From contig JAAEEP010000017.1 of the NCBI GenBank assembly GCA_013415695.1, forward strand, positions 1-45,992: 45,992 nucleotides of DNA, written 5' to 3'. The notes under the pieces are model-generated. The model had not been told where the DNA came from, did no database searches, and was given only the letters and a program-made list of their open reading frames with translations. Below are positions 9,254 to 20,958 of this stretch, in pieces. Numbering within the stretch: the first letter of the stretch is position 1; each line of letters begins with the position of its first letter. The translations under genes were made by a program, and so were the position numbers. The DNA is from Methanomassiliicoccales archaeon (GTDB taxonomy: Archaea > Thermoplasmatota > Thermoplasmata > Methanomassiliicoccales > JAAEEP01).

Positions 9254-9997
9254 TCAAAGACGGAATCTGATGGGTCTTTCCAGTGTCGTAATGCCCAGGC
9301 AGTCCACCTCACCGCCTATCTCCCTTGGGAGCTTAGATGCCTCATATAGGTCTGAGATGAACTTCACCCAAGCTGCAAGGAACCGGATCCTGCCCTCCAG
9401 AGAAGGATAAGGGACGTCGAAACCGGTTAACGTGTTCACCCTTTCCAACCCCTCCTCGACCCCGGTCCGAAGGTTCTTGTATAGGCCGTAGTCTCCGTTA
9501 TACCAGACCGTCTCGACCTTTTCATCAGGTTGGAGGTCATGTCCGTACTCCTTTCCGGTGATGTAATCGTGGATCTCCAGATCCGTGTAACTTCCCTCGC
9601 AGTTGCGCACATGATAGAAAGCGGGCCACCTTTGTCCCCTGAGCTCCTCGTATCCGGCCAGGTGGAAACCAAGAGGCCTCTTCTCCTCACCCATGGACTT
9701 CTGGAGCTCTTCTCTGAGGGCATCGGCGAAATCACCCAGTGTGGCTATTCCTTCGTACCTGCGGATGAAATCCTCCATCCAGATATCGGCGAACACCTCG
9801 CCGGTAATTGATCTGATCCTGCCGGCTCCCCACATGGATACCCCCGCGTTCAGGTAAGGGATGTATTGAAGCTTTCTAGCACCCTGGAGAACCCTCTGCC
9901 GTATGGCTCCTGAGGGCGTCAGCTCCCTGAAGTTGTAGGCACTGTCGGCGACCATCGCTATACCGAACGGCGTGATCTCGGTGATTATCAGGGTCAT
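9254..9997 (-). CDS. Proteasome-beta-like Ntn-hydrolase candidate
   Basis: A 247-residue protein; ATG 9997 has GGTGA nine bases upstream. After Met removal the N-terminus would be Thr1 (TLIITEITPFGIAMVADS). Asp then falls at position 17, as in proteasome beta subunits (Thr1, Asp17), and a GARKLQYIP segment at about 38-46 resembles the lysine-bearing segment that follows in that fold. A Gly-rich AGVSMWGAGRI stretch may match the SGxxAD-type core. The rest does not resemble a canonical 20S subunit, and there is no ATPase neighbour. The assignment to the Ntn fold is by motif spacing and is tentative; otherwise the protein is unrecognised. Confidence 0.5.
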   Translation of the reverse strand: MTLIITEITPFGIAMVADSAYNFRELTPSGAIRQRVLQGARKLQYIPYLNAGVSMWGAGRIRSITGEVFADIWMEDFIRRYEGIATLGDFADALREELQKSMGEEKRPLGFHLAGYEELRGQRWPAFYHVRNCEGSYTDLEIHDYITGKEYGHDLQPDEKVETVWYNGDYGLYKNLRTGVEEGLERVNTLTGFDVPYPSLEGRIRFLAAWVKFISDLYEASKLPREIGGEVDCLGITTLERPIRFRL

Positions 9998-10666: not shown

Positions 10667-11464
10667 TCAACGCTCATCTGAGAGGTACTCTCCCAGTAGC
10701 AGCCTGGTATCCTCGGATATCTCTCCCAGGACGCTAATGTCATAGGCTACCTGCATCTTGATCGTTGGGGGGGAAGATCTTAAAAGCTCTCTCAGTCGGC
10801 TCTCGGTCGGTTCGGGTCCAAAAGGATGCAGCAATCTGAGGGTCATCGAATATGTTGACCGGAGATCGTTCTCCTTCGGAATAGGATGGGATAGAACGAT
10901 GTCCAGCACGTCCTCGCCAGGAAGTGTTTCCTCATTGAGTGCGATGTTGATCGCCCTCATTGCAGCGGATCTGCGAGATGGAGCATTGCTGGAGAATTGT
11001 TCCCTTAGCAAACCCAATACCTCGTCTGGATCGCTTCTTGCCGCTCCCCCAAGAAGGGCGGATGCAAAGATGGCCGTCACCTCCTTTTCCTCGGAGAGGA
11101 GATCCTTCGCATGGGACAAGGCTTCGTATGGTTTCTTCTCTGCCCCATCGACCAAACCGCTCCAGAACATCTCCCCCGCTAGCTTCTCGTTGACCTTCCG
11201 AGATAGTTTTTCGATCATAGGCATGAAGTCGGGACTGCCTATCTCTGATTCAAGAACGTGACAGACAACCGGAAGCCAGTACCAAAAATCTGTTTCCAGC
11301 ATCATCGAGAAGGCGGTCGTCCTCTCTTCGCTGCTCATCTGGAGACTTCTCTCGTCCCAGTTGACGATCAGCGCCTCATGGCTTTCCGAATCCGATCTGA
11401 TGGTATATAGAATCTCACCGATCTCTCCGTCCGAGGTCATTGGTCCAGTTAGGTGGCTTCCCAT
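10667..11464 (-). CDS. Helical-repeat (HEAT-like) protein, partner of the AAA ATPase
   Basis: A 265-residue, almost entirely helical protein without signal peptide or membrane segment. Helix pairs such as SRRSAAMRAINIAL and IKMQVAYDISVLGEISEDTR look like HEAT/ARM-type repeats, a scaffold for protein binding. It starts 22 nt downstream of the AAA ATPase stop on the same strand, so the two are almost certainly cotranscribed. I do not recognise the family. A role as adaptor or substrate-recognition partner of the ATPase is inference from context. Confidence 0.65.
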   Translation of the reverse strand: MGSHLTGPMTSDGEIGEILYTIRSDSESHEALIVNWDERSLQMSSEERTTAFSMMLETDFWYWLPVVCHVLESEIGSPDFMPMIEKLSRKVNEKLAGEMFWSGLVDGAEKKPYEALSHAKDLLSEEKEVTAIFASALLGGAARSDPDEVLGLLREQFSSNAPSRRSAAMRAINIALNEETLPGEDVLDIVLSHPIPKENDLRSTYSMTLRLLHPFGPEPTESRLRELLRSSPPTIKMQVAYDISVLGEISEDTRLLLGEYLSDER

Positions 11465-11486
11465 CTATTATGATTCCCATGGCTGT

Positions 11487-13595
11487 CTATTCATCCTCAA
11501 GAACCAGTTCCAGGAAGTGGTCCGCGTCAACATGAAGGTACAGCTGATCCTTAGGGGGCAGGGCGGCCGGCTCGAACTCTTGCCTATCGGAGAGAAGTGA
11601 CATGTCGATAACCGCTTCCATTGAGCGGACGCCGTGCTTGTATCTCCTGACCTTGATGAGAGCCCTTATCACTCCTGGATTGATGAGCGCCTTCCCGTCC
11701 TTGTCGAATATGTGTCCAGCCTTTGCCCTCAGGATGGATCGGAGGATCATGGCCCTCCTGATCATGTAGCATCGATCCGTCTTGTTGGCCGGATTGATGC
11801 CCATGATGTTGACGTATCCCCTAAGCCGGCTTACGAAATCTGGCCCCTTCGCTTCGCAGAACTGATCCCATTCCTCCCACGCGTGACGGGCCTCCTCCAT
11901 GTCGTTGAAATCGTTCTCATCGGTGTACTCCGTGAAGAAGTCCTCGAAGGTATGGCTGGTCCCACCAGCGAAAACGAAAATGGACTTGCCTATGGGGTGG
12001 AATGTCTCTCCATCCCTGAATATGCCGTCCTGCATCGGTGCCAGGAAGTACTTGAGCCATCCCTTTCTCTGACCGTAGAAGCAGTCAAACTCGTCGAAGA
12101 AAACCAACGGGATCTTCCCTTCAAGTCCAGTGCTCTGTACCTTATGGAATGCGTTTACAAGATCATCCAGCGAACGGAACTGGGAGACGTTGAACTCCAG
12201 CTTCTCGATCTTATCGGGCTGAAGGCTCTTCGATATCTGAGTGACCCCGTATGTCTTACCTGATCCAGGTTGTCCGAACACCGCGATGGAAAGGGGTGTA
12301 GTCACATCCCTCTTGGAGAGGTACTCGTCAAGCAGGTTCATGATGCTCTTGTAGCTCTCGATCTCGGTGCGGTCCACCGTTCGAAGCTCTCCGAAACTGG
12401 CCACAGGCACGCGGATCATGGGTGATACCGCTCCTTCGATCACCAGCTTATAGGCGATCTCCTCGAGCTCCTCTCCTGCCAGCTCATCCAATATCGTCCA
12501 ATGCCGCCCCTTTCCCTCACTGAGGGAGGGAATGTCGATACTCGTGAACAGTGGATCGGTCTGGTGGGACTCGAAGATCTCCTTCAGCAGGTAATCTGGT
12601 TCGTCTGGTGGACTTCCGTAACCGTGGAGGAAGAGTCTCCTTGCCGCGGCGAGCCCGTCCTGCACTCCCTTGCCTATCACCTCCATTCCATCCTGGAACA
12701 GCCTAGCGGTGAGAGCGGACACGAAAGCCGAGGTTAGGCCCTGCATCTGGCCTGGCCAGTCATCCTTGTAGTCATCCTCCATGACCATCGGGTCGTAATA
12801 GAGGGTGTTCATCATCGTCTGCTGATCCTTATGGCAGAGAATGGCCCCCTCTATGCCGAACATCACCACCAGGTACCGCGATCTCATCAGCTGAGTGATC
12901 ACCGGGTCGTGATAGGCGTGCCATTCGAAATCCTGGGCTGTCCGCTCCCAAGAAAGCCTCCTGGAGATATTGATCCCGCACAGCCTGAGGCTGTTGGCGT
13001 TCACCACCGTTACCAGGTTCTCACCGTTCTCCTCTACAAGGTGTTCCCAGAGAGGTCCCTCGGCCAAGGGTCGGTTCATCTTCACGATCACCAAGGGCTT
13101 CGATTCTCCATCAAGGACAGAAGGCCAGACCTCCGGCCGATCACGAAAACCGTTTCCACTATCGTCCAGGACGACAATATCGACCTCATCGATATCTCTG
13201 CTAATGGTGAGAGGAGAGAGTACGCAACTTCTGGGTCCAGAGTACCCCTCGAATTTCTCCACCCGGTATACCAATTCTCCCTGGTCCTTATCCAGATTTG
13301 AGAGGGAAAACACCCCCACCTCTGCCATTGAGTGGAGGACATCCTCCGAGGACACGTCAGATAGGTCCTTCACTTCCTGCCCGATCACCTGGGCACTGGT
13401 AGCGGCTTCCACCATCTTTGCTAGGAGAAGTGAGCCTCCCGGTCTGGGCACCATCTTGAACACAGGCCCGGCAAGCCAGTTCTGCTCCCCCTCATCCTGA
13501 CGAACCTGGCATTTCCATTGGAGCCAGTCTATTGCGGCATCACCCGTGACCACTAGCTTCCTGGTTCGAGGCGATGGTTTAGATTCCTGATGCAT
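11487..13595 (-). CDS. Fusion of degenerate PfkB/ribokinase-like domain and AAA ATPase
   Basis: A 702-residue protein; ATG 13595 has AGGAG about ten bases upstream. Residues about 12-330 look like a PfkB-type fold: VVTGDAAIDWLQW at the start, GG at 53-54, LDDSGNGFR at 143-151, MFGIEGAILC at 245-254, then GLTSAFVSALTARLF at 286-300. That last motif aligns with the PfkB GAGDxFxxA signature but lacks its catalytic Asp. Residues about 415-680 are a AAA module: Walker A GQPGSGKT (441-448), Walker B LVFFDEFD (497-504), then RRAMILRSILRAK and an arginine-rich tail. Cytoplasmic. It probably couples ligand sensing to ATP-driven remodelling (inference). First gene of an operon with the helical-repeat protein. 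Confidence 0.75.
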   Translation of the reverse strand: MHQESKPSPRTRKLVVTGDAAIDWLQWKCQVRQDEGEQNWLAGPVFKMVPRPGGSLLLAKMVEAATSAQVIGQEVKDLSDVSSEDVLHSMAEVGVFSLSNLDKDQGELVYRVEKFEGYSGPRSCVLSPLTISRDIDEVDIVVLDDSGNGFRDRPEVWPSVLDGESKPLVIVKMNRPLAEGPLWEHLVEENGENLVTVVNANSLRLCGINISRRLSWERTAQDFEWHAYHDPVITQLMRSRYLVVMFGIEGAILCHKDQQTMMNTLYYDPMVMEDDYKDDWPGQMQGLTSAFVSALTARLFQDGMEVIGKGVQDGLAAARRLFLHGYGSPPDEPDYLLKEIFESHQTDPLFTSIDIPSLSEGKGRHWTILDELAGEELEEIAYKLVIEGAVSPMIRVPVASFGELRTVDRTEIESYKSIMNLLDEYLSKRDVTTPLSIAVFGQPGSGKTYGVTQISKSLQPDKIEKLEFNVSQFRSLDDLVNAFHKVQSTGLEGKIPLVFFDEFDCFYGQRKGWLKYFLAPMQDGIFRDGETFHPIGKSIFVFAGGTSHTFEDFFTEYTDENDFNDMEEARHAWEEWDQFCEAKGPDFVSRLRGYVNIMGINPANKTDRCYMIRRAMILRSILRAKAGHIFDKDGKALINPGVIRALIKVRRYKHGVRSMEAVIDMSLLSDRQEFEPAALPPKDQLYLHVDADHFLELVLEDE

Positions 13596-13679: not shown

Positions 13680-13844
13680 TCAGCTCTTGCGGTCCACGTT
13701 GCGCTCTTCTTCCTCCATGTATGCGGAACCACATGCAGGGCAGGTATTGGGCTTGACGCCCTCTCTCCTGAGCCAGGAGTGACCACAACTTCCGCAGCGG
13801 ACCTTGTTGAATTCTATGTCCTTTATATCGGCGTTGGATATCAT
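13680..13844 (-). CDS. Small zinc ribbon protein
   Basis: A 54-residue protein from ATG 13844, with GGAG four bases upstream. A longer frame exists, but the extra N-terminus has no ribosome binding site. The zinc ribbon is C17-x2-C20 (RCGSCGHSW) and C35-x2-C38 (TCPACGSAY), followed by an acidic tail EEEERNVDRKS. It probably binds nucleic acid or protein. It lies 84 nt upstream of the AAA fusion gene on the same strand and could be in the same transcript. Function unknown. Confidence 0.75.
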   Translation of the reverse strand: MISNADIKDIEFNKVRCGSCGHSWLRREGVKPNTCPACGSAYMEEEERNVDRKS

Positions 13845-14096
13845 GTCTCCATTCCTCTGAAAATCAACACACCGAGTTCCATATAAGGACTTCGGAGCTA
13901 ATCCGTGCTGATAACGACCGGACGATATTAGGGAATAATCACGCATTTTCAATGAGGGAAAGAAGGGATTTCAGCTCAATGAAACTCGATGTACCGGCAT
14001 CCACGCATTTCGCAGGTCCACTTGAAGACAAGTTGTTCAAATACCAAGAATTACAAACTCTATTGCCCATTAGCTCCCTAGCTAGGGAGAATCATC

Positions 14097-15122
14097 ATGC
14101 TGGAGATCAACCCACGATCCGCGGTGGACTATCTGAAACGAATTGAAATGACTCCAGAGGATTCCAAGCCGACCGCAAGACCACTTGGCGGTGGGATTTC
14201 CAATCAGGTCATCATGATAGAATGGGACGATGGTTGCCTCGTGGTCAAGCAGCCACGTGAGAAACTCAATGTGAAAATGGATTGGCCGGCTGACCTTCGA
14301 AGGATTCATATCGAGGCCGATGCGCTGAGAACATATCGAAGGCTGATGGAGGAATCAGACCTGGACTGGGCCAGTGTTCCGGCGGTACACCACGAGGATT
14401 TTGAGGAGCACATCATTGCGATGGAGTGCATACCTAGCGAAAAGACAGAAATGTGGAAGACCGAGCTCCTGGGAGGTGATGTAGATATCGAGGTGGCCCA
14501 AAGATTAGGAACTCTATTAGGAAAGGTACAGTTCCTGGCTTCGAAGGATTCCCGTATAAGGTCCAGGTTCTCCTTTAAGGAACACTTCGATGAGCTCAGG
14601 ATTGATCCCTACCACCGTACCACGGCAAGCAGGAATCCGGACGTTGCCAAAATAATTCTCAAGGAGGCGGATAGGGTGTACTCGGAGGGGATGACCATCG
14701 TCCACGGAGATTACAGCCCTAAAAGCATCCTGGTGAACCGCTCTGGACGTGGAGCACAGCTCTGGTTATTCGACATGGAGGTAGCCCATTGGGGAGATCC
14801 CTCCTTCGATACGGGATTCATGCTCAACCACCTGTTCATCAAGTCCGTCCATTTGACAGACAGGAGAGAAGAGTTCATAGAGGCGGCCATGAGATTCTGG
14901 GAGTCGTACGACACATGCGTCGATTGGGATATTGAGAAGGAGACGGTGAGCGAGCTGGGATGCCTGATGCTGGCCCGAGTTGATGGGAAATCTCCAATCG
15001 AATATCTGAACTCAGCTCGAGAGGCGCAAACTCTCAAGCGGATCTCCAAGAGATCGTTGAAGGAGGGCCTGAGATCGCTGCAGGATTTCGCCGATATCGT
15101 CAGAGAGGAGGTAAATCAATGA
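14097..15122 (+). CDS. APH/MtnK-like small-molecule kinase
   Basis: A 341-residue kinase of the aminoglycoside/methylthioribose kinase fold, with GGGAG upstream of ATG 14097. It has a Gly-rich loop PLGGGISNQVIMIEW, a Lys in CLVVKQPREK, the catalytic loop VHGDYSPKSILV and the metal-binding LFDMEVAHWGDPSFDTGF. A Ser stands where APH enzymes have Asn after HGD, as in methylthioribose kinase. The stop overlaps the start of the enolase-like gene (ATGA), so the two are translationally coupled. The kinase probably phosphorylates the hydroxy compound that the enolase homologue then handles (inference). The substrate is not known; it need not be methylthioribose. Confidence 0.8.
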   Translation: MLEINPRSAVDYLKRIEMTPEDSKPTARPLGGGISNQVIMIEWDDGCLVVKQPREKLNVKMDWPADLRRIHIEADALRTYRRLMEESDLDWASVPAVHHEDFEEHIIAMECIPSEKTEMWKTELLGGDVDIEVAQRLGTLLGKVQFLASKDSRIRSRFSFKEHFDELRIDPYHRTTASRNPDVAKIILKEADRVYSEGMTIVHGDYSPKSILVNRSGRGAQLWLFDMEVAHWGDPSFDTGFMLNHLFIKSVHLTDRREEFIEAAMRFWESYDTCVDWDIEKETVSELGCLMLARVDGKSPIEYLNSAREAQTLKRISKRSLKEGLRSLQDFADIVREEVNQ

Positions 15123-16402: not shown

Positions 16403-16782
16403 TGTTAACACCATTGAATTATCCACCTAGAAAACTTAGAGAATAATCAAATTTTTAGAAAAGAGCGCACAATATTATTATTCTCAAAATAGATAATATG
16501 TGATTTTACGAATGTAACTTAACGGAGTTTATATCTATTTTTCTAGACAATTTTGTATATAATTTTCTTGCTATTTCCCTTATTAATCCAGTAGAGAAGT
16601 ACTTATAAGGTGAGAAGGGTTCTCCGACCCAATGGCAACCCAACATTGGAAGGGATTGTTGGGTATATTCGATGATTAGGGGGCTTCAAAGAGCAGCTTG
16701 CCTTTTTGAAAGCAGCATTGAATCGATAAATGCCGTGAACAGAAACCCTCCCACAAAAGTAGGACGGAAGGGGGAGGAACGT
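16403..16782. promoter_or_regulatory. AT-rich control region upstream of the C1 protease
   Basis: This 380-nt gap holds no gene that I can support. It is far richer in A/T than its surroundings from about 16430 to 16600. An exact 9-bp inverted repeat, GAGAATAAT (16439-16447) and ATTATTCTC (16477-16485), lies just after the enolase-like gene and may be a terminator or operator. A TATA-like ACTTATAAGG lies near 16610-16619. The likely ribosome binding site GGGGGAGG is at 16770-16777. Confidence 0.5.
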
Positions 16783-19700
16783 TTGAAGCAATCGAACAGA
16801 ATACCACACATGCTAGCCACCATCATAGTGGTGGCTGTTGCGGCGATGTTCATCGGTACAGCGATTTCTGGGATATCTAGCTCAGCTGGTGAGCATCAGG
16901 AGCAAATAGACATCTCCGTGGGGGCGGACAGTCCCCCAATCATGATGAGTATCGTCAATAGCAATCTAAGTATCACTTACCATAATCCGTCTCAAGATGA
17001 TTTAGCGAGTTTGAAGAGCGTCTGGGGTGTAAGGGATGAGAGTGGCAATTACAATGTGCTCATGGACAAGATGGGTACAGGTCTTGCCCCTCTGACCAGT
17101 AGTGAATGGGACGCTTTATCCAGCAGTATCAACCTGGTAGATGGCGTAACCAGCCTCGGAAGCATACCGAGCTCGGTCGACATCTCCACCGAACCCTACT
17201 TCCCCAAGGTCGCTACCCAGGGGCTTCAAGGTTCATGCGCTGCGTGGGCGATCACTTACTACGCCTATGGATATCTCGAAGCAAAGGACAATGGATGGAC
17301 CGGTGCCAGTACTGGTAACCCCGCCCACCTGATCTCCCCCGCATGGACATACAACCGTGCGAACGGAGGTACGGATTCAGGATCCTCGATCATCAGGAAC
17401 ACCGACATCATAAAAGAGTGGGGGGTGGCAACGATGGCTACCATGCCTTACTCCGACACAGATTTCAGTTCCTGGGGAAGCGAGAGTGCTATGAGAGAGG
17501 CTCCACTTCACAGGTCTGTTGATTTCTTCACAATGAGTTTCAACGGCGATGCTACCGTTGAAGACGTGAAGGAACTTCTCGCATCAGGGACCCCAGTAAC
17601 GATCGCCTTCGATGCCAATATGTATCAGCCTGGATTCGCTGATGGCAACTGGAAGATCTCCTCAATTGAGTACGCGTCCTCCACAATTAACCATGCCCAG
17701 ACAATCGTGGGATATGATGATTATGTTAGTGAGGATGGGGAGGTCGGTGCCTTCAGGATTGTGAATTCCTGGGGTTCCAATTTTGCCGATAGCGGATACT
17801 ACTGGCTCACGTACGAAGCGTTCAAGGAGATAGGTGACAGACTCGGTACTGGATACTTCATTGATTCCACTGATTACCAGCCCAAGCTGCTGGCGACATG
17901 GGAGTTCTCCCAGTCGCCTACCAGGGATGCTGACATCTCATTTGACATTTCTTCCAACGGCATGCAGAGGGACAGCAAGGACCTATACTACGCAATTAAC
18001 AGCGGTGGAAGCACTCTAAGATTCCCGAACTTTCTGTGCTTGGATATCACTGAGTTCAACAACGATCTCCTAGCTGGTGCGGATGAGTTCTCCATGACCG
18101 TGGGTTCATCGACCTACTACGGTCAGGTGAGCTCGTTCAAGGTGGAAAAGTACAATGCTTACACACCTGGAGATCCCGATGACATATCTGCAATGCCCGG
18201 AAATGTCCCAGCCTACACGCCCTGCGAGCTGACTACCAGCTTCGCATCTTCGGGGCCTTCTTTACCAGGATCGCCCACGAATCTTCAGGCTTCGGCCGGA
18301 GATGGAAGGGTGTCTCTAGGCTGGAGCGCCCCATCGAATGATGGCGGTTCGTCGATCACCCAGTACAGGATATACAGGGGAACTAGCTCCTACAGCCTGT
18401 CCCTGGTGACCTCGGTCACCTCAACATCCTACACCGACAGCTCGGTCACCAACGGAAACACCTACTACTATTCAGCCCGGCCAGAGGCTTCCTCGGGTAC
18501 CGATGTTCCATCGGCACCTCAGAACCTCGTTGGGACCCCAGGGGACTCTACGGTTGTTCTCTCATGGAACCCTCCGGCTGATGATGGTGGATACCAGATC
18601 ACCGGGTACAAGATCTATCGAAGGACCGAGGGGGCTTCGTGGTATTACGTCTACACCATAGGGGTCCAGACCTCGTACACCTTCAGTGGGCTGACGAACG
18701 GAGTTACCTACCTATTCTCTGTCTGCGCCATGAATGATTTGGGCTACGGGCCGAAATGCAGTGAGATCTCTGCAGTTCCTGGTGCCTCTGCGTCCACAGT
18801 GCCTGGGGCCCCAACATCGCTCTCGGCGACCCCTGGAGATTCCCGGGTTACATTGAGCTGGAACGCCCCATCGAATGATGGCGGTTCGTCGATCACCCAG
18901 TACAGGATATACAGGGGAACTAGCTCCTACAGCCTGTCCCTGGTGACCTCGGTCACCTCAACATCCTACACCGACAGCTCGGTCACCAACGGAAACACCT
19001 ACTACTACGTGGGGGAGGGGCCAAAGTCCAGCCAGGTTTCAGCAAAACCTGAAGCACAGTCGAATGTACCTGGAACTCCGGTAGGGCTCTCAGCCTCACC
19101 TGGTGATTCCAAGGTCACACTCAACTGGCAGGCACCTGCCGATGATGGTGGCTCCCCAATCACTGGATACAGGATATACAGAGGATACAGTTCTGGCTCG
19201 CTTTCTTTCGTGGCATTAGTGTCCTCGACCCAGTACCAGAATACCGGGCTCACCAACGGTCTGACCTACTACTTCAGCGTGTCTGCGGTCAACTCGGTGG
19301 GTGAGGGATCTCGCTGCACGGCGGTCTCTGCGACCCCGACCCAATCGACCTCTCCTCCATCGGCACCAATCGGACTCAATGCCAACGCTGGTAACAGCAG
19401 GATAGACCTTAGCTGGAACGCTCCCTTGGACAATGGAGGCGCGGAGATCACCAGTTACAAGGTGTACAGGGGAACCAGTTCCTCCTATCAGTCCTACCTG
19501 ACAACTGTGATCTCAACGTCGTACGCTGACACTTCCGTGACCAACGGGGTGACTTACTACTACTCCGTATCAGCGGTGAACTCAGCGGGCGAGGGAGACA
19601 GATCTAGCGTTGCGTCGGCCACTCCGCAGGAACCTGCGGAGAAAACGGTTCCATCGGCACCTCAGAACCTTGTCGGGGTTCCAGGTGAAACAACCGTCAT

Positions 19701-20958
19701 TCTCTCATGGAACCCTCCGGCTGATGATGGTGGATACCAGATCACCGGGTACAAGATCTATCGAAGGACCGAGGGGGCTTCGTGGTATTACGTCTACACC
19801 ATAGGGGTCCAGACCTCATACACCTTCACCGGATTGACCAGTGGCCAGAATTACCTGTTCTCCGTCTCCGCCATGAATGATTTGGGCTACGGGCCGAGAA
19901 GTGAGGAGATTACGGTGAAGCCGGGAGGGGGCATCTCAGTACCCTCCTCCCCGCAGAACCTCAATGCCGTTGGTGGTAATGGTGAGGTTAGTCTGAGTTG
20001 GCAGACTCCCTCTAGCGATGGGGGTTCACAGATCACCAGCTACAGGGTATACAGGGGGACCTCTTCCTCAACACAGTCTTTCCTCGTACAGGTCTCAGGA
20101 CTTGGATATGTGGATAGCTCTGTTGTCAACGGGCAGATCTACTACTACAGGATAACCGCTGTGAATCTTGCTGGCGAGGGGCCAAGCTCCTCTACCATTT
20201 CGGTGACACCGCAGGCCACGATAGAGAGACCGTCGGCACCTCTCTCTTTGTCGGCATCATCTGGAGACGGTACGATCGGCCTGACCTGGTACAAGCCAGC
20301 AGATGACGGAGGTTCTTCGATCACCGGATACAGGGTCTACCGCGGGACCTCTTCAAGCTACATGCCTCTGTTCACCACGCTGACCGGGACATCATTTACC
20401 GACAGCTCGGTGACCAACGGCGTGACCTACTACTACAAGGTCACCGCGGTCAACGCGGCGGGCGAGGGAGATTCCACCGGAACAATATCCGCGACACCCA
20501 GGTCATCTTCAGAGTTGACCGTACCGGGTAAACCATTGAACCTCTGGACCGAGACTGGAACCCAATCGGTGATCCTACATTGGAGCCCTCCGGCAGATGA
20601 CGGTGGATCTCAGATAACCGGTTACAAGGTCTACAGAATGATGGAAGGCCAATCATGGTACTACGTCTTCACGGTTGGCAACGTCAACCAGTACACACTC
20701 AGCAATCTCAACAACGGCCAGACGTACTACTTTTCGGTGAGTGCGGCAAATGAGGTCGGCTATGGACCACGATCGAATGAGGTGTCCGCCACCCCGACCC
20801 TATCGGCGCTGAGCGAGTCGTCAATCTCAGAAACACCGTTGCTACTCGCCGCGCAGACTATGCCTGACACATCGTCTCTACCTCAATTGGCCGCGAAGAC
20901 CGGGATAATTTCCGCAGATCCTCAGATAGATCCTTTGATCTGGCGAACCACCCATTAA
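16783..20958 (+). CDS. Secreted papain-like (C1A) cysteine protease with nine fibronectin III units
   Basis: Start chosen at TTG 16783 because GGGGGAGG lies six bases upstream and the product then opens with a signal peptide (KQSNRIPHMLATIIVVAVAA). An ATG 37 codons earlier has no such support. The protein is about 1391 residues. The peptidase domain (about 130-350) has oxyanion Gln149, Cys152 in QGSCAAWA, His304 in INHAQTIVGYDD and Asn328 in VNSWGSN. A linker domain follows. From residue about 504 there are nine fibronectin type III units of about 90 residues (PSAPxxL ... DGGSxITxYRVYRG ... NGxTYYY). Units 1 and 3 are shortened at their ends. No C-terminal anchor. Likely an extracellular protease that attaches through its repeats. 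Confidence 0.88.
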   Translation: MKQSNRIPHMLATIIVVAVAAMFIGTAISGISSSAGEHQEQIDISVGADSPPIMMSIVNSNLSITYHNPSQDDLASLKSVWGVRDESGNYNVLMDKMGTGLAPLTSSEWDALSSSINLVDGVTSLGSIPSSVDISTEPYFPKVATQGLQGSCAAWAITYYAYGYLEAKDNGWTGASTGNPAHLISPAWTYNRANGGTDSGSSIIRNTDIIKEWGVATMATMPYSDTDFSSWGSESAMREAPLHRSVDFFTMSFNGDATVEDVKELLASGTPVTIAFDANMYQPGFADGNWKISSIEYASSTINHAQTIVGYDDYVSEDGEVGAFRIVNSWGSNFADSGYYWLTYEAFKEIGDRLGTGYFIDSTDYQPKLLATWEFSQSPTRDADISFDISSNGMQRDSKDLYYAINSGGSTLRFPNFLCLDITEFNNDLLAGADEFSMTVGSSTYYGQVSSFKVEKYNAYTPGDPDDISAMPGNVPAYTPCELTTSFASSGPSLPGSPTNLQASAGDGRVSLGWSAPSNDGGSSITQYRIYRGTSSYSLSLVTSVTSTSYTDSSVTNGNTYYYSARPEASSGTDVPSAPQNLVGTPGDSTVVLSWNPPADDGGYQITGYKIYRRTEGASWYYVYTIGVQTSYTFSGLTNGVTYLFSVCAMNDLGYGPKCSEISAVPGASASTVPGAPTSLSATPGDSRVTLSWNAPSNDGGSSITQYRIYRGTSSYSLSLVTSVTSTSYTDSSVTNGNTYYYVGEGPKSSQVSAKPEAQSNVPGTPVGLSASPGDSKVTLNWQAPADDGGSPITGYRIYRGYSSGSLSFVALVSSTQYQNTGLTNGLTYYFSVSAVNSVGEGSRCTAVSATPTQSTSPPSAPIGLNANAGNSRIDLSWNAPLDNGGAEITSYKVYRGTSSSYQSYLTTVISTSYADTSVTNGVTYYYSVSAVNSAGEGDRSSVASATPQEPAEKTVPSAPQNLVGVPGETTVILSWNPPADDGGYQITGYKIYRRTEGASWYYVYTIGVQTSYTFTGLTSGQNYLFSVSAMNDLGYGPRSEEITVKPGGGISVPSSPQNLNAVGGNGEVSLSWQTPSSDGGSQITSYRVYRGTSSSTQSFLVQVSGLGYVDSSVVNGQIYYYRITAVNLAGEGPSSSTISVTPQATIERPSAPLSLSASSGDGTIGLTWYKPADDGGSSITGYRVYRGTSSSYMPLFTTLTGTSFTDSSVTNGVTYYYKVTAVNAAGEGDSTGTISATPRSSSELTVPGKPLNLWTETGTQSVILHWSPPADDGGSQITGYKVYRMMEGQSWYYVFTVGNVNQYTLSNLNNGQTYYFSVSAANEVGYGPRSNEVSATPTLSALSESSISETPLLLAAQTMPDTSSLPQLAAKTGIISADPQIDPLIWRTTH
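18327..18470 (+). repeat. Exact 144-bp DNA repeat, copy 1 (fibronectin unit 1)
   Basis: Positions 18327-18470 read identically to 18864-19007. Neighbouring fibronectin units share only protein-level similarity, so this marks a recent duplication or gene conversion inside the array. Confidence 0.9.
18557..18674 (+). repeat. Exact 118-bp DNA repeat, copy 1 (fibronectin unit 2)
   Basis: Positions 18557-18674 read identically to 19700-19817 (unit 6). Another near-identical stretch, encoding AMNDLGYGP, follows further downstream in both units. Confidence 0.9.
18864..19007 (+). repeat. Exact 144-bp DNA repeat, copy 2 (fibronectin unit 3)
   Basis: Second copy of the 144-bp sequence at 18327. Directly after it the reading frame jumps from NGNTYYY to VGEGPKSS, missing about seven residues (SVSAVNS-like) present in complete units. 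Confidence 0.9.
19700..19817 (+). repeat. Exact 118-bp DNA repeat, copy 2 (fibronectin unit 6)
   Basis: Second copy of the 118-bp sequence at 18557. The flanks diverge at silent and non-silent positions, so only the centre is a recent copy. Confidence 0.9.

Follow-up and report, generated by a model that had tools for sequence, protein, structure and literature searches.

A catalytically degenerate PfkB-like domain on a Clp-type AAA+ ATPase in a Methanomassiliicoccales archaeon, and its RyR-bearing relatives

In kinases of the PfkB family, the aspartate of the GAGD signature acts as the general base. Nucleotide-signal systems of the SLOG/SLATT/TIR type were reportedly described by Burroughs et al. 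2015. Phage RyR proteins cleave or sequester the immune signals 2′/3′cADPR, and the cleaving member uses residues H75, W78, H100, and D117 (2026 preprint, PMC13232231). Here we analyzed a stretch of 45,992 nucleotides (the window) from a Methanomassiliicoccales archaeon, which encodes on its minus strand a 702-aa protein (positions 11487–13595) that joins a PfkB-like domain lacking the catalytic aspartate to a Clp-type AAA+ ATPase. The initial annotation was right about these two domains but overlooked the RyR domain, which is the usual third domain of the family. It had also placed the protein in a module with a neighboring helical-repeat scaffold. The breadth of the PfkB-like/AAA/RyR family and the loss of RyR from the window copy are of more interest than that module.

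A family that usually ends in RyR domains

When genome contigs were scanned with the 702-aa sequence by itself, no relative was found. A profile of four sequences recovered at least 249 relatives from bacteria and archaea, a lower bound, and 80 of them were kept for comparison. They come from Bacillota, Chloroflexota, Chlorobiota, Acidobacteriota, Planctomycetota, Verrucomicrobiota, Euryarchaeota, and other phyla. The family is thus widespread among microbes and largely unnamed, its members being annotated as “RyR domain-containing protein”. Identity to the nearest kin (e.g., G025 and L002) is about 50% over nearly the full length, and a protein of Methylobacterium sp. FF17 (WP_264051538.1) is 33% identical to the window protein over residues 158–698. 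One divergent relative was found in viral contigs and none in a phage collection. A literature search, which did not cover Burroughs et al. 2015, returned no paper on the PfkB-like/AAA/RyR architecture, and the papers found contained no biochemical data on the family. Burroughs et al. 2015 is the most relevant prior work.

A C-terminal RyR tail (PF02026) is present in 70 of the 77 complete members, and in those scanned (G025, L066, and the Methylobacterium protein) Pfam RyR scored above its cut-off. Comparison of the tails showed that relatives run about 150–180 residues past the end of the window protein into a RyR tandem; at this point the window gene has its stop codon (11487–11489, minus strand) followed by a 22-nt gap (together 11465–11489). 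RyR is also missing from a Streptomyces plasmid copy, two Methanosarcina proteins, one planctomycete protein, and the divergent viral relative; L035 was left out of the losses, as its tail enters unreadable sequence. In trees, the window protein clusters with two RyR-bearing archaeal homologs (SH-aLRT 97–98), and the presence or absence of RyR needs three changes on the tree with long branches removed. Since its nearest kin bear RyR and no RyR domain occurs anywhere in the window genome, even with stops read through, the window copy has lost the domain. Three members (L066, L073, and L080) have a further SLOG-like C-terminal domain fused behind the RyR tail. An archaeal protein of 563 aa (L093:25-1713), encoded in a different genome from this order, ends in RyR (31.7 bits), and its long N-terminal part, which has no Pfam match, looks HD-like by eye.

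The ligand residues of RyDEP, the phage RyR protein, are kept to different degrees in the family tails: the equivalent of H75 in 70/70, W78 in 63/70, H100 in 44/70, and D117 in 43/70. Loss of the D117 equivalent in the Bacillota branch would suggest that those tails bind their ligand rather than cleave it.

A degenerate kinase domain on an intact ATPase

Sequence profiles were blind to the PfkB half of the protein. The PfkB profile matched 0 of 49 family members (E 0.5), and a profile of the N-terminal half had no match in Pfam or among PDB sequences, so structure prediction was needed. With an alignment of 49 sequences as input, AlphaFold gave a confident model of the 702-aa protein (mean pLDDT 91.2, pTM 0.90), and a Foldseek search of the PDB placed PfkB kinases at the top, led by fructose-1-phosphate kinase 2abq (prob 1.00, E 3.6e-8) and followed by the M. 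jannaschii nucleoside kinase 2c4e, 3h49, and pseudouridine kinases. The fold match and the column counts assign residues 1–340 (12576–13595, minus strand) to this domain, which bears out the ribokinase fold that had been proposed from sequence landmarks.

As was also noted at first reading, GAGD is replaced by GLTS at residues 286–289, which removes the catalytic aspartate. This state is not peculiar to the window: position 289 is serine in 60 of the 77 complete members and aspartate in one. As the aspartate column is mostly serine in the relatives, the alignment identifies the domain as a pseudokinase across the family. Other positions are strictly kept (G18, D19, D145, R204, S215, and W216 in 77/77), and the SWE at 215–217, G18-D19, and D145 are invariant or nearly so. 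Together with the lost aspartate, this pattern suggests a ligand pocket kept without phosphotransfer. A PfkB fold with invariant or near-invariant polar residues (D19, D145, R204, and E217) could also be that of an active small-molecule kinase that uses another base, with the AAA+ domain in a regulatory role, but 76 of 77 members lack the residue that serves as general base in this family, and we regard such activity as very improbable. The initial proposal of a nucleoside or sugar sensor controlling the ATPase is plausible.

The AAA+ domain (about residues 411–702; 11490–12365, minus strand) is delimited by the Pfam AAA match, invariant columns, and the fold match. PF00004 (26.4 bits, cut-off 21.2) is the sole Pfam domain above cut-off in the protein, and the nearest folds in the PDB are those of Skd3, ClpB, and ClpC. 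The ATPase motifs are intact, as originally reported, with Walker A (GQPGSGKT) at 441–448 and Walker B ending in DEFD at 501–504. Residues G441, P443, G444, G446, K447, D501–D504, R590, and R657 are found in all 77 complete members; we take R590 and R657 to be the Arg-finger and sensor-2 positions by analogy with ClpB. No GYVG occurs between Walker A and Walker B.

The window protein differs from the family at five of 86 near-invariant positions (S202, T448, Y449, Q487, and S488), compared with 0–3 departures in the other well-aligned members checked. Two of the five replace R487 and D488, which are kept in 73 of 73 compared relatives. Among the RyR-less members, we found no common departure that would mark a contact site for RyR. 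The extra departures could reflect decay or a changed job. A decaying remnant, without selected function since the RyR tail and the partner genes were lost, would account for them and for the longer end branch of the window protein (0.69). We nevertheless think it rather unlikely: the 702 codons are free of stops, the Walker A, Walker B, Arg-finger, and sensor-2 positions are intact together with most pseudo-PfkB invariants, and the RyR-less proteins of the two Methanosarcina and the planctomycete argue that the shorter form can persist.

Gene neighborhoods in the window and in relatives

Downstream of the 702-aa gene, on the same strand and after the 22-nt gap noted at the outset, lies a gene for a 265-aa protein (10667–11464). 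A single-sequence AF2 model predicts an all-helical fold with 15 helices (pLDDT 67), and its matches among PDB folds are weakly HEAT/TOG-like (best E 0.035). The two genes are probably co-transcribed. It was proposed that they belong to one conserved module of three parts: a pseudokinase that acts as sensor for a nucleoside or sugar, the ATPase that it drives, and the helical scaffold through which it works. The shared strand, the short gap, and the predicted helical partner fit this idea, but a homolog of the helical gene adjoins the ATPase gene at 0 of 84 other loci, and no convincing homolog of the protein was found in 101 relatives, 390 genomes of the phylum, or viral contigs. Matches in five other genomes of the 390 (E 0.003–0.01) are at about chance level and were set aside. 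The helical gene is therefore an orphan, and the tightly linked downstream gene of relatives is often SLOG-like, TrkA, or DUF4062 rather than helical. A conserved scaffold module is thus quite unlikely; the two genes may indeed form an operon, though a local one.

Upstream, 84 nt from the 702-aa gene and on the same strand, is a small ORF (13680–13952) with an MJ0042-type zinc finger (TIGR02098, 27.6 bits, cut-off 20.9), possibly the first gene of the unit, an association of position only. Other genes of the window were recorded in passing. A plus-strand gene (14097–15122) encodes an APH-type kinase (PF01636, 45.8 bits, with a weak methylthioribose-kinase match) and overlaps by 4 nt with the beginning of an enolase-like gene; at 16672–20958 (plus strand), a secreted-looking protein of 1428 aa has, by eye, a papain-like N-terminus and numerous repeats of fibronectin-III type. 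A 247-aa ORF (9254–9997, minus strand; first residues MTLIITEITPFGIAMVADSA) has no Pfam or NCBIfam match and resembles, by eye, a proteasome-type Ntn hydrolase.

Relatives are often found in different company. Conflict-type genes, belonging to two recurring groups, lie within 3 kb at 36 of 85 loci, and their share is 16.5% of the genes up to 1.5 kb away and drops to 3.5% at 6–9 kb. Among these neighbors, Pfam names TrkA_N+RyR, RelA_SpoT+LSDAT (SLOG)+RyR, SLATT-bearing, TIR_2, and DUF4062 with NACHT proteins. A “VTGHR” protein often follows directly downstream (spacing −4 to +21 nt); by itself it has no Pfam match, and its appearance, along with its being fused to SLATT, suggests that it is SLOG-like. 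Such a setting is one of nucleotide-signaling conflict and is in keeping with a stress or antiviral response based on nucleotides. The conflict-gene loci are mostly outside Clostridia and Chlorobi. No conflict-gene neighbors were seen in the branches of Clostridia (22) and Chlorobi (9), so many family members may be housekeeping proteins. At the window locus, no TIR or SLOG-type signal gene is a neighbor. As the genome has no TIR_2, LSDAT, or RyR match, the ancestral signaling role cannot simply be transferred to the window copy.

Two of the loci carry further genes worth recording. Directly after one family member lies the gene for an 859-aa protein with RelA/SpoT synthetase, SLOG (LSDAT), and RyR parts (L010:11646-14225), whose synthetase part matches PADLOC PDC-S33. 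On a Methylobacterium plasmid (L007; NZ_CP107533.1, 1567–11944), two transposase-type genes separate the family member from the gene for a very large SIR2-family protein. Membership in the IteA/IetA, mad8, or OloA systems (PADLOC, NCBIfam) was considered and rejected, since the matches (E 0.001–0.04) covered P-loop or helical stretches only; none of the PADLOC models fits a full-length relative.

Proposed switch and its described counterparts

We hold, with moderate confidence, that the protein is an ATP-driven switch in which a dead PfkB sensor sits on a Clp-type AAA+ ATPase that is normally also under RyR control, the window copy being a version without RyR. The PfkB-fold domain would act as a ligand- or partner-sensing module, and the ATP cycle or the oligomer state of the Clp/HSP100-type domain would be the output. 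Ancestrally, and in most members today, the RyR tandem would be a third module that reads an ADP-ribose-type nucleotide signal. The window copy has shed RyR and the conflict neighbors; since it retains the motor, as well as most of the pocket of the pseudo-PfkB domain, it is probably an ATPase regulated through the pseudokinase domain alone or through another partner. It is also conceivable, although unlikely, that the family forms a class of nucleotide-gated AAA+ machines in which RyR reads a TIR-made cADPR-type signal, the dead PfkB domain takes a second ligand, and the Clp-like motor responds, and that the window copy was rewired so that a new helical-repeat protein, encoded where RyR would otherwise follow, replaces the RyR input.

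From a biological perspective, the family combines an RyR domain, a Clp-like ATPase, and a dead sugar/nucleoside kinase in numerous phyla of bacteria and archaea, and its genes often lie beside TIR genes that could make 2′/3′cADPR-like signals. As a candidate host-side receptor of ADP-ribose signals, it can be tested directly, and the natural RyR-less versions could reveal the role of the RyR input.

Finally, the protein can be set against the systems already described. Thoeris and the SLOG/SLATT/TIR systems have no counterpart beside the window copy, and TIR_2 and LSDAT are not in its genome, but relatives adjoin TIR, SLOG-like, SLATT, TrkA, and RelA-SLOG genes. RyDEP is a phage anti-defense protein, a glycosidase or sponge of 2′/3′cADPR (PMC13232231), and not an ATPase; it shares the RyR domain and most ligand residues with the tails of the relatives, although not with the RyR-less window protein. 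With PfkB/ribokinase kinases (2abq, 2c4e, and pseudouridine kinases), the window protein has in common the fold of residues 1–340 and two landmarks toward the N-terminus, G-D and GG, but it is fused to an ATPase and has neither the catalytic aspartate nor a profile match. Unlike Clp/HSP100 proteins, it has a single AAA+ module, with no GYVG-type sequence seen where the pore loop usually lies and no ClpP-type partner, but the closest AAA+ folds are ClpB NBD2 and Skd3, and the Walker A, Walker B, Arg-finger, and sensor-2 motifs are arranged in the same order. Compared with its own family (e.g., Methylobacterium sp. FF17 WP_264051538.1), the window protein is without the RyR tandem and conflict neighbors, but the PfkB-like and AAA+ domains are homologous.
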